Positions 12,660 to 17,257 of a stretch of DNA of 64,000 nucleotides are shown here, piece after piece. Numbering within the stretch: position 1 is the stretch's first letter; each line of letters opens with the position of its first letter. The notes under the pieces were generated by a model that was not told the origin of the DNA, ran no database searches, and saw only the letters and a list, made by a program, of their open reading frames with translations. The DNA comes from Sneathiella aquimaris (lineage in GTDB: Bacteria > Pseudomonadota > Alphaproteobacteria > Sneathiellales > Sneathiellaceae): NCBI RefSeq assembly GCF_026409565.1, contig NZ_CP112881.1, forward strand, positions 2,549,501 to 2,613,500, in the 5' to 3' direction. The position numbers and the translations under genes are program-made.

Positions 12660-13292
12660 ATGACGGATACAGCAGACAGTCCAATCACGACTGATCGTGC
12701 CAGTAAACGCAAGGCAGAAAAACGAGAGCGGCTACTGGCTGCGGCACGCAAATTGTTCATCCAGAGGGGTTACCATGAAACGCGCCCGCAAGACATTGCG
12801 CGTGAGGCGGATGTTGCGCATGGGACCTTCTATAGCCACTTCAATGACAAGCGGGAAATCTTCCTCGCCTTCGCGAGTGAGGCTCAGGAAGACCTTCACG
12901 TGTATGTTCAGGACCGAATTCCTGAGGTCAATAATTTTGAAGAATATTTACAATACGCGCTTACTGCCATTCAGGAATTTGCAGAACAAAATCCGGGTCT
13001 GCTCAGATCTGCACTCGTTGACACCAAGGTTTTTGATCCAACAGATTCCACCAGTAAGGTTGTCCGCAGCAAATTTGCCGCCGGCTTTATCAATGTACTG
13101 TCAAAGGCAAAAGAAAATAACGAGCTTTACGATGATGTTGACCCGGAATTGATGGGACACGCAATGATTGGGCTGATTCAATCCTCCGCCCCGCAATCCT
13201 ATCGGATGGGAAAAAGCCGTGAAGAATTTGTCCGCTTAATGGCCTGTCTCCTTGCTCGTGGCATGATCAAGAACCCGAAAAACCTGGACTAA
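12660..13292 (+). CDS. TetR/AcrR family transcriptional regulator
   Basis: A 210-residue one-component regulator. The N-terminal helix-turn-helix (about residues 19-65) has [20 protein letters not shown] and the family signature [14 protein letters not shown]; the C-terminal ~140 residues form the ligand-binding/dimerisation domain. A good AAGGAAAG precedes the start. Divergent from the feruloyl-CoA synthase operon with a palindrome between them, so it probably represses that operon and itself, relieved by an acyl-CoA or aromatic ligand. Its stop overlaps the htpX stop by 4 bp on the opposite strand. Confidence 0.9.
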
Positions 13293-14263
13293 TCCCAAGG
13301 TTTTTTCTTTCCCCTACCCGTCTTGGAAGGCGGGCTTTGCGTGTGCGGGACAGCCCCTGCCGACCGCCCGGTTGAACCGGGTGCGCCAGAACGTTTGGCC
13401 GTGGAAGATATTGGACCTTGCCTAAAAATATGAGCGGCCATTTCACGCAGTTTACGCACTCTATTTGCTGTGGCTGGATGGGTTGAGAATAAACTGTCCG
13501 CTCCTTTGCCGTGCAAAGGATTGATAATAAACAGACTGGCTGAGGCAGGATTCTGTTCTGCCACACGGTTTTCCACCCGGGCCGCTCCATTTTCCAGCTT
13601 TAAAAGCGCAGACGCCAACCATTCAGGATTACCGCAAATTTCTCCTCCGGCCTTATCGGCTGAATATTCGCGGGTTCGGCTTATTGCCATCTGCACCAGC
13701 ATGGCGGCAAAAGGCGCAATGATCATCAAGGCCAGTGTCCCGATAATTCCCATATTATTGTTTCGGTTCCCACCAAAAAACAGGGCGAAATTTGCCAACA
13801 TGCTGATCGCACCGGCAATCGTTGCCGTAATTGTCATGATTAAAGTATCGCGGTTTTTAATATGGGCCAGTTCATGTGCCATAACACCGGCCAGTTCCTC
13901 TTTAGTCATTATTTTCAGAAGGCCCGAGGTCGCCGCCACCGCTGCGTTTTGGGGGTTTCTGCCGGTGGCAAACGCATTAGGCTGCGGATTATCCATGATA
14001 TAAACCCGCGGCATCGGCAAATCAGCTCGCTTGGCAAGCTGCGCGACAAGGCCCACAAATTCTGGAGCGGTGTTCCGATCAACTTCCCTTGCCCCATACA
14101 TCCGCAAAACCATCTTGTCGGAATTCCAGTAAGCAAAACCGTTCATTCCGATTGCGATCATCAACGCAATTATCATACCCTGTTCGCCGCCGATCATAAA
14201 ACCGACGCCCAAAAACAAGGCCGTAATCACCGCGATTAACATTCCTGTTTTGACGAAATTCAT
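13289..14263 (-). CDS. htpX: Membrane zinc metalloprotease HtpX
   Basis: A 324-residue M48-family inner-membrane protease. Two N-terminal transmembrane helices (about 5-24 and 29-45) precede the zinc site HELAH (H130, E131, H134); further membrane segments follow at about 145-190. The [13 protein letters not shown] segment is diagnostic of HtpX. It helps FtsH in degrading misfolded membrane proteins. The C-terminal ~40 residues form a basic, serine/glycine/proline-rich tail that extends beyond the E. coli protein (293 residues). Upstream lies a sequence resembling a heat-shock sigma promoter. Confidence 0.95.
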
Positions 14264-14303: not shown

Positions 14304-14332
14304 TATATGTTATTTTGTCGGCATGTATTCAA
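14304..14332 (-). promoter_or_regulatory. Possible htpX promoter
   Basis: On the minus strand TTGAAT (complement of 14327-14332) is separated by 17 bp from CATATA (complement of 14304-14309), about 45 bp before the htpX start. This loosely resembles alphaproteobacterial RpoH promoters (CTTG...CYTATNT), which would suit a heat-shock gene. Confidence 0.3.
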
Positions 14333-14437
14333 TAAAGCGACGCACAAACCAGAATAAAAAAATCACTCGACAACATTCATCGCCCGGATACAGATCACCG
14401 GAAAGCGACATTTCTTTATAAGTGCCTTAAAAAATCC

Positions 14438-14466
14438 TTGTTCTTGCCATAACGCCGCCCTAGCTT
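14438..14466 (+). promoter_or_regulatory. Candidate sigma-70 promoter for the small RNA
   Basis: TTGTTC (14438-14443), a 17-bp spacer, then TAGCTT (14461-14466). Moderate match to TTGACA/TATAAT; its value is its position just before the folded region and the lack of any plus-strand gene upstream. Confidence 0.4.
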
Positions 14467-14472
14467 GTCATT

Positions 14473-14606
14473 AAGCGTAAAGTATCTTCTGCAAGATATT
14501 GAAACTTAACTAATATCGCAGAAGTTCCGAGCAAGTCTCTCGGAGGCGTCTGTGTTCCTGCTACACAGCAAAGCGGCGGAATTTATTCCGCCGCTTCTTT
14601 TTTTAT
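14473..14606 (+). ncRNA. Candidate structured small RNA between htpX and alaS
   Basis: A stretch with no credible ORF that folds into four successive hairpins: CTTCTGC 14486-14492 with GCAGAAG 14518-14524, extended inside by GATATT 14495-14500 with AATATC 14512-14517; CCGAG 14527-14531 with CTCGG 14539-14543; CTGTGT 14550-14555 with ACACAG 14563-14568; and a 10-bp GC-rich terminator stem followed by a T-run. It has its own possible promoter and its neighbours are both on the minus strand, so it is an isolated plus-strand unit of about 130 nt. It does not look like 4.5S, 6S, tmRNA or RNase P RNA, and I do not recognise the family. Confidence 0.65.
14572..14606 (+). terminator. Rho-independent terminator of the small RNA
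   Basis: AGCGGCGGAA (14572-14581) pairs with TTCCGCCGCT (14586-14595) around a 4-base loop and is followed by TCTTTTTTTAT on the plus strand. The minus-strand side lacks a strong U-tract, so it serves the plus strand better than alaS. Confidence 0.85.
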
Positions 14607-14608
14607 TC

Positions 14609-17257
14609 TCAGGCAACAAGAAACTGTTTGATGGCCTCGATGGCCTGATCCGCCTTTGAAGCATCCGGGCCGCCCGCTTGCGCCATGTCAGGGCGGCCAC
14701 CACCGCCCTTACCCCCAAGAGCTTCAGACCCGACACGGACAAGATCAACCGCGTTAAACTGGCTTGTCAGGTCTTCTGTCACACTAACCACGATGGAGGC
14801 TTTGCCGTCATTAGCCGCAATCAAGACGATCACGCCACTTTTCAGGGTTTTCTTGATTTCATCCGCCATAGGTTTCAAGTCCTTAGGCGGGACATCTTCC
14901 AGCAAACGGGAGGCGAAAGAAACATCACCCACTTTTTCCGCAGCCTGGTCAGAACCGCCACCCGTTGCAAGTTTCTTGCGGGTTTCCTTGAGTTCTTTCT
15001 CCAGCCGTTTGCGTTCCTCAACCAAGCCGTTTACGCGACTTGCAAGTTCGGCGGGCGATGTTTTAAGAACGTCTGATGCGTCACTCAGGATCTGTTCGCG
15101 TTCGTTCACATAATCAAGAGCCGCGGCCCCTGCCACTGCCTCAATCCGCCGAACGCCCGCAGCCAGGCCTCCTTCACTGACAATCTTAACAAACCCAATG
15201 TCCCCGGTTCGTTTAACGTGGGTACCGCCGCAAAGTTCGGTAGAATAAGACTGTCCAGCCCCTTTATTTGCATCGGGCCCGCCCATTGAAACAACGCGAA
15301 CTTCGTCCCCGTATTTTTCGCCAAATAAGGCCATTGCGCCGGCTTTTATCGCCTCTTCCGGTGTTGTTAGATGAACATCCACCTCGGCATTGATGCGGAT
15401 ATGATCATTCACATCTTTTTCGACCAGACGCAGCTGTTCCTCAGTCACAGGGCGTGGATGCGCAATATCAAAGCGCAGACGATCCTCTGCGACCAGTGAG
15501 CCTTTTTGTGTTACGTGATCACCAAGACGCTGACGCAAGGCTTCATGCAGCAAATGAGTAGCAGAATGATGGGCCCGCAAACGATCACGACGATCAGAAT
15601 TTACCTGTGTTTCGACCACATCAGCAACTTTTACACTTCCCGTTTCCACGGTCCCAATATGGATGAACAGATTTTCTTTTTTCTGTGTATCCCTGATGAT
15701 GACCTTGAGACCGCTCTCAGAAACCAGAACGCCAGTATCCCCTTCCTGACCACCAGATTCACCGTAAAAGGCTGTTTGGTTCAGAACAATCATAACATCG
15801 GTGCCTGCATCCGCGGCACTCACCTCTTTGCCGTCGACCAAAATCGCCTGCACCTGACCTTCAGCTGTGTTTGTCTGATAGCCTAAAAACTCGGTTGCGC
15901 CTTCCCGGTCATGAATATCAAACCAGATCCGATCCGTTGCGGCATCACCAGAGCCTGTCCAGGCGGCCCGGGCGGCGTCTTTCTGTTTTTGCATGGCGGC
16001 ATCAAAACCAGCTTCGTCGAGATCCCGTTCCTGACCGCGCAGAATATCCTTGGTCAGATCAAGCGGGAAACCGAAGGTATCATAGAGTTTAAACGCCACA
16101 TCTCCGGGCAACGCTTCATCTTCCTCCAGTTTGTCCGTGGCGTCACCCAACAATTTAAGGCCACGACCCAGAGTTTCCTTAAACCGCGTTTCTTCAAGCT
16201 TCAGTGTTTCAGTGATAAGTGATTGCGCGCGCTCCAACTCCGGAAAAGCAGATCCCATTTCATCTACCAGCGAAGGAACAAGTTTATAAACCAGTGGGTC
16301 TTTTGCACCCAGAATATGGGCATGGCGCATGGCCCGGCGCATGATCCGTCGCAAAACATATCCACGCCCCTCATTGGACGGGAGAACACCATCAGCGATC
16401 AAGAAAGAGGATGACCTTAAGTGATCAGCAATGACCCGATGCGAAACCGCAAACTCTCCATCTGAAGCAACATTCGACATCTCTGCAGATGCCTGAATGA
16501 TTTTCTGCATCAGATCGATATCATAATTGTCATGCTTTCCCTGAAGAACAGCGGCGAGCCGCTCCAGTCCCATGCCAGTGTCAATTGACGGTCGCGGCAG
16601 GCTCAAGCGATCGCCATTGGCCTGCTGTTCGAACTGCATGAAAACAAGGTTCCAGATCTCGATAAAACGATCACCATCTTCATCCGGTGATCCGGGAGGT
16701 CCGCCGGGAATACCTTCACCATGATCAAAGAAAATTTCAGAACATGGACCACACGGCCCCGTATCGCCCATGGACCAAAAATTGTCCGATGTGGCAATTC
16801 GAATGATCCGATCGTCTTTAAGTCCGGCAATCTTCTTCCATAAATCAACCGCTTCCTCATCGTCGTGATAGACGGTAACCAGCAGTTTTTCTTGCGGTAG
16901 GCCATATTCACGGGTCAGCAAATTCCAAGCGAGCTCAATAGCATTTTCCTTGAAATAATCACCAAATGAGAAATTTCCCAGCATTTCAAAGAATGTATGG
17001 TGGCGCGCGGTATAACCGACATTTTCAAGGTCATTATGCTTACCGCCTGCACGAACACATTTCTGCGTTGTCACCGCGCGGTCATAGGGCCGTTTTTCCT
17101 GGCCAGTAAAAACATTTTTAAACTGCACCATGCCGGCGTTTGTAAACAACAACGTAGGGTCGTTCTGCGGCACAAGCGGCGAACTGGCGACGACTTCATG
17201 ATCATTCCTGGCGAAATAGTCCAAAAAAGCCGAGCGAATTTCTTTTGCTGTTGTCAT
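14609..17257 (-). CDS. alaS: Alanyl-tRNA synthetase
   Basis: A class II synthetase of 882 residues that charges tRNA-Ala. The N-terminal catalytic domain shows [31 protein letters not shown] and GMGLERL; the editing domain has [12 protein letters not shown] and the CGGTH motif ([15 protein letters not shown]), which bind the zinc for deacylation of Ser/Gly-tRNA-Ala; the C-Ala domain ends with [13 protein letters not shown]. An upstream in-frame extension exists, but the ATG at 17257 ([15 protein letters not shown]) has GGAG about 9 bp upstream and matches the family N-terminus. The MoxR gene is divergent. Confidence 0.97.

Follow-up and report, generated by a model that had tools for sequence, protein, structure and literature searches.

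Introduction

The closest described counterparts of the RNA presented here are the alphaproteobacterial trans-encoded small RNAs (sRNAs) EcpR1, AbcR, and MmgR, each a stand-alone intergenic gene that combines several hairpins and an intrinsic terminator with its own promoter-like site and vertical inheritance inside a clade. The cores of sRNAs of this type are typically anti-Shine-Dalgarno (anti-SD)-like. A locus beside alaS in Sneathiella aquimaris resembles these systems in gene layout, promoter-like site, and inheritance, but has no sequence match to them, is confined to one genus among the genomes searched, and carries a core that is SD-like (GGAGG). Two Rfam families share single traits with it: suhB/MmgR (RF00519) has a similar terminator-proximal hairpin layout but lacks any of the conserved core of the Sneathiella RNA, and 6S RNA (RF00013) is of similar length and differs in topology. 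A literature search on Sneathiella sRNAs, whose coverage excluded most subscription papers, returned nothing relevant. As judged from sequence comparison, the predicted RNA is a real and new sRNA family of an ordinary kind, restricted to its genus.

Results

Architecture of the predicted RNA

The window, a 64-kb stretch of DNA that forms a portion of one 3.94-Mb contig, has as a whole zero Rfam matches at gathering score. Between two of its minus-strand genes, htpX and alaS, lies a predicted plus-strand RNA of ~130 nt, convergent with alaS and divergent from htpX, which consists of three hairpins followed by an intrinsic terminator (Table 1). A sequence-only reading had proposed a plus-strand unit between two minus-strand genes, with three inner hairpins, two stacked stems in the first of them, and a strong terminator; sequence inspection, folding, and scanning recovered every one of these parts at the place proposed. 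The 5′ end near position 14473 is inferred from the promoter-like boxes. If these are right, a further helix that appears in the fold of 14438–14606, pairing 14452–14456 with 14545–14549, would lie partly upstream of the start; by eye, this helix has no clear counterpart in relatives. A model search found the locus in single copy in the genome, terminator-like matches aside, and the covariance model R1, of which the window copy is itself part, matches the window at 14475–14599 with 89 bits.

Table 1 Features of the htpX–alaS intergenic region (positions in the window)
Feature	Position	Strand	Description and basis
htpX	13289–14263	minus	gene on one side of the RNA locus
Upstream block CTTAAAAAATCCTTGTTCTTGCC	14426–14448	plus	overlaps the −35-like box; counterpart of type 2 CAYRAAATAACCCCGAAATTGCC; alignment of upstream regions
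−35-like box TTGTTC	14438–14443	plus	sequence
−10-like box TAGCTT	14461–14466	plus	sequence; 17-nt spacer after TTGTTC
Predicted small RNA	14473–14604	plus	5′ end placed by the promoter-like boxes, 3′ end by the terminator
Hairpin H1	14486–14524	plus	two stacked 7-bp stems, 14486–14492/14518–14524 and 14495–14501/14511–14517 (one G–U); six of nine consensus pairs change on both sides
Hairpin H2	14526–14544	plus	loop CAAGTCT; stem 14526–14531/14539–14544
Conserved core AGTCTCTCGGAGGCG	14534–14548	plus	includes linker AGGCG; proposed contact site
Hairpin H3	14550–14568	plus	stem 14550–14555/14563–14568; folding and type 1 alignment
Intrinsic terminator H4 and T run	14571–14604	plus	stem 14571–14596; T run 14598–14604
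alaS	stop at 14609	minus	gene on the other side of the RNA locus

The predicted folding energy of 14438–14606 is −57.1 kcal/mol, whereas dinucleotide shuffles average −37.0 (z = −5.56), and none of 200 such shuffles folds as well. This excess stems largely from the terminator, since without it the z-score of the window copy drops to −2.05 and 11 of 200 shuffles equal it, a moderately unusual value. Ten relatives folded in the same truncated form gave z-scores from −0.83 (G011) to −5.43; eight of them were equaled by 0–4 of 200 shuffles, one by 5, and G011 by 41. In several relatives T runs flank the terminator hairpin on either side, and H4 is probably common to the RNA and the convergent alaS; such an arrangement would account for the constant linkage to alaS without any regulatory tie. 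Many relatives have short U tails, a feature that speaks against a strong reliance on Hfq.

Covariation in two structural types

Homologs in the genus fall into two structural types. The alignment of type 1 comprises 10 sequences and 33 consensus pairs in four helices, with 93.3% of cells able to pair. Fourteen of these pairs changed on both sides, compared with a shuffled mean of 6.6 (0 of 500 shuffles as high) and a best slid control of 9. The changes are spread over helix 1 (six), helix 3 (three), and helix 4 (five), with zero in helix 2 because that helix is nearly invariant. For type 2, aligned from eight sequences with G012 and G017 left out, changes on both sides affect 12 of 29 pairs, whereas shuffles average 5.5, with none of 500 as high, and the best slid control reaches 5. 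Both structures were derived from the alignments on which they were scored, which favors them over their slid versions in the counts of 14 against 9 and 12 against 5. The proposal of a structured RNA is thus borne out by compensatory changes in relatives, in excess of shuffles and slid controls for both types.

A conserved SD-like core

Conservation is highest in the second hairpin and the linker that follows it, AGUC-N-CUCGGAGGCG. Its longer form, AGUC-N-CUCGGAGGCG-N(1–2)-CUGUG, is common to all 10 type 1 sequences and spans the loop and 3′ arm of H2, the linker, and the start of hairpin 3. Every column of the core but one is invariant across these sequences, the AGUC of the H2 loop is invariant in type 1, and 98.3% of the H2 alignment cells are paired. 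Type 2 has at the corresponding place a shorter form, AAGUC-N(2–3)-GGGAG(G/A), carried on another scaffold. In type 1 the core occupies a hairpin loop, but in type 2 it lies next to stem H1 or forms part of it, a difference that leaves a single exposed seed unproven. Two single-stranded seeds had been suggested from sequence; the one at 14532–14538, in the H2 loop, is strongly conserved, but that at 14501–14511 is variable. Pairing of GGAG with the H3 loop to form a pseudoknot was considered by eye and dropped because GGA is paired in the H2 stem and the loop varies.

Promoter-like site and changing upstream genes

Four relatives (MAG.259, G004, G016, and G011) have TTGATC or TTGATA at the −35 position and share an identical TAGCTT with the window, at a spacing of 16–17 nt, so that 5 of the 11 type 1 copies have the promoter-like site. 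The remaining six type 1 relatives lack TTGATC-like and TAGCTT boxes, as does type 2. The boxes of the possible promoter with 17-bp spacing in the sequence-only reading are present and are echoed in four relatives, from which its support comes; a generic promoter scan of the stretch found no promoter.

The neighboring upstream gene, htpX in the window, varies. MAG.259 and G004 have htpX farther off with other genes in between, which by eye resemble a TetR regulator and thiC; the promoter-like site and the RNA are retained in both. At gathering score, Rfam has no match in the window or in the loci of 20 relatives, in agreement with the earlier remark that the element resembles no nameable RNA family. 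Together with the covariation, this lack of a match and the retention of the promoter-like site next to different upstream genes point to an independent structured RNA. A low-threshold Rfam scan of six relatives' loci returned one match, to an animal microRNA family, which we took as chance.

Distribution in Sneathiella and beyond

The C-terminus of AlaS was found in 21 of 24 Sneathiella genomes, and in 18 of these 21 regions the pattern AGTC-N(2–6)-(G/C)GGAG occurs immediately past the end of alaS, on the other strand; the regions of G011, G013, and G017 do not have it. We built two covariance models, R1 from nine type 1 copies and R2 from eight type 2 copies. R1 finds nine genomes with E ≤ 4.3e-20 and, weakly, G011 (1.1e-4); R2 finds ten with E ≤ 3.7e-7. 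Strong homologs thus lie beside alaS, in the same place, in 19 of 24 genomes (E = 3.7e-7 or better), of which 17 contributed to R1 or R2 and match their own model by construction. MAG.259, which stands outside the model, scores 82.9 bits with R1 (E = 5.1e-20); the other independent members are G017 (R2, E = 1.2e-18) and G012 (R2, E = 3.7e-7). The alaS site of G013 gives marginal matches (R1 0.0209, R2 0.0018), and G006, G010, and G015, where alaS was likewise not found, match neither model.

On reading, the G017 locus (L047) keeps the type 2 hairpin and terminator parts with the AAGUC..GGGAGG core gone, and the region downstream of alaS in G013 (L049) looks degenerate. The seeming loss of the core in G017, and perhaps in G013, with other parts kept, suggests that the RNA is not indispensable.

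G024, the only other genus of the family examined, has a different gene facing alaS and no such RNA. We extended the model search to 386 genomes of the class, 24 in the genus and 362 outside it. Of the 362, 20 have an R1 match at E up to 0.1 and 4 have an R2 match at E up to 0.01. The core is absent from the matches at all 26 loci checked, 22 of them outside the genus; one locus has a chance copy of it ~550 bases away from the match. Two loci, L071 and L072, proved on reading to be plain terminators. A search for the core pattern, for which we roughly estimate 2 to 4 chance matches, found none in viral contigs and 10 stretches in genome contigs. Seven of these are Sneathiella or alphaproteobacterial, and all seven adjoin AlaS; matches in Paenibacillus, Gemmatimonadaceae, and Natronomonas have no AlaS beside them and were taken as chance. 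By these comparisons the predicted RNA family is genus-restricted, as matches outside the genus are only terminator-like, and vertically inherited.

Relationship of the two types

Scanned with a weight matrix built on nine type 2 cores, 8 of 10 type 1 regions give the core as the best match, but only 3 reach the level of 0–4 in 300 shuffles. Upstream, a matrix from seven type 2 sequences locates the block in the window, where 7 of 300 shuffles equal it; its best match has a similar position in 13 of 15 regions, and 8 of 15 are equaled by 7 of 300 shuffles or fewer. On the AlaS tree the types cluster, with two changes each against a shuffled mean of ~8, a result that bootstrapping has not settled. 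Comparison shows that the Sneathiella RNA descends within the genus in two structural types, and types 1 and 2 are likely of common origin, as judged from their synteny, the upstream block, and a core that matches in part.

Discussion

We favor a noncoding sRNA of ~130 nt that has its own promoter, shares its terminator with alaS, and acts in trans through its core, a reading to which sequence analysis leads us to give a probability of roughly 0.5. Transcription from its own promoter would end at a terminator that also serves alaS from the opposite direction. Base pairing with a partner would involve the exposed H2 loop (CAAGUC) and the AGGCG linker, with the hairpins and terminator acting as scaffold and stabilizer. 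The partner could be an mRNA or another sRNA with a CCUCC-like pairing site, the latter being conceivable because the core has an SD-like GGAGG. No target emerged: in a search of nine genomes, complements of a 14-nt core with up to two mismatches were no commoner than matches to the reversed pattern, a result that applies to 14-nt sites and leaves room for short seeds. In every genome the RNA gene itself gives the best match, and the surroundings of five other complementary loci share no gene by inspection; most of these sites fall within open frames or where a contig ends.

The missing mRNA complement would also be expected if the RNA bound a protein or the 30S ribosome and acted by titration, with GGAGG pairing to the 16S anti-SD or the AGUC loop serving as a protein site. 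The core is conserved in both sequence and structure, and its 5-nt SD has no conserved reading frame behind it; GGAGG, however, is short by itself and partly paired in H2, and the core contains no known protein motif that we recognize, so we regard such binding as unlikely. In a related proposal, which we hold to be quite doubtful, the SD-like core was kept while the surrounding scaffold was rebuilt, and the RNA would capture anti-SD-like sequences, either as a sponge of CCUCC-type sRNAs or at the 16S 3′ end. The same GGAGG could instead precede a tiny peptide, making the element its leader or mRNA, and a GTG indeed stands 5–6 nt past GGAGG in all 10 type 1 copies that have GGAGG. That GTG belongs to H3, however, most type 2 copies have no start there (by eye), and the candidate frames of type 1 copies range from 3 to 59 aa with neither length nor sequence conserved, which makes a coding role very improbable.

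It is also rather improbable that the element is nothing more than the convergent alaS terminator with incidental sequence upstream. The constant alaS linkage, the T runs that often flank the terminator on both sides, and the matches of our models to terminators elsewhere fit such a view, but the covariation in H1 and H3 does not depend on the terminator, the core is invariant, and the promoter-like site recurs in the window and four relatives. Membership of a known class as a divergent 6S, GibS, or suhB/MmgR RNA would rest on sub-threshold, chance-level Rfam scores, 24.5 bits for GibS (RF04182, gathering 115) and 21.7 bits for RF00519 (gathering 41), and seems scarcely credible: neither the window nor the 20 relatives' loci reach gathering level, GibS is a Bacteroides RNA whose match here comes mainly from the terminator, and the sole 6S match in the genome, a genuine 6S gene (59 bits), lies away from the RNA locus at 3109102–3109260. 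For the predicted RNA we consider action in trans through the core, with trans action already raised as a possibility by the sequence-only reading, the most likely. The locus adds a well-supported sRNA family to Sneathiella, together with a model that can be used directly and a core that is short and invariant. If this core acted as an SD-like decoy, the regulation would be of an unusual kind; if not, the RNA is one more genus-specific sRNA.

Two observations concern the flanking sequence. On the minus strand of the window, htpX is preceded by a promoter-like TTGAAT-N17-CATATA at 14304–14332, and type 2 relatives have CTTGAT..CATATA-like boxes in the corresponding position. Type 2 loci (e.g., L051 and L056) carry a conserved block, CAYRAAATAACCYCGAAANTGCC, 50–60 nt upstream of the RNA, bounded by inverted arms that differ among species and, by eye, retain their complementarity; these arms possibly form a further 5′ hairpin or an operator.
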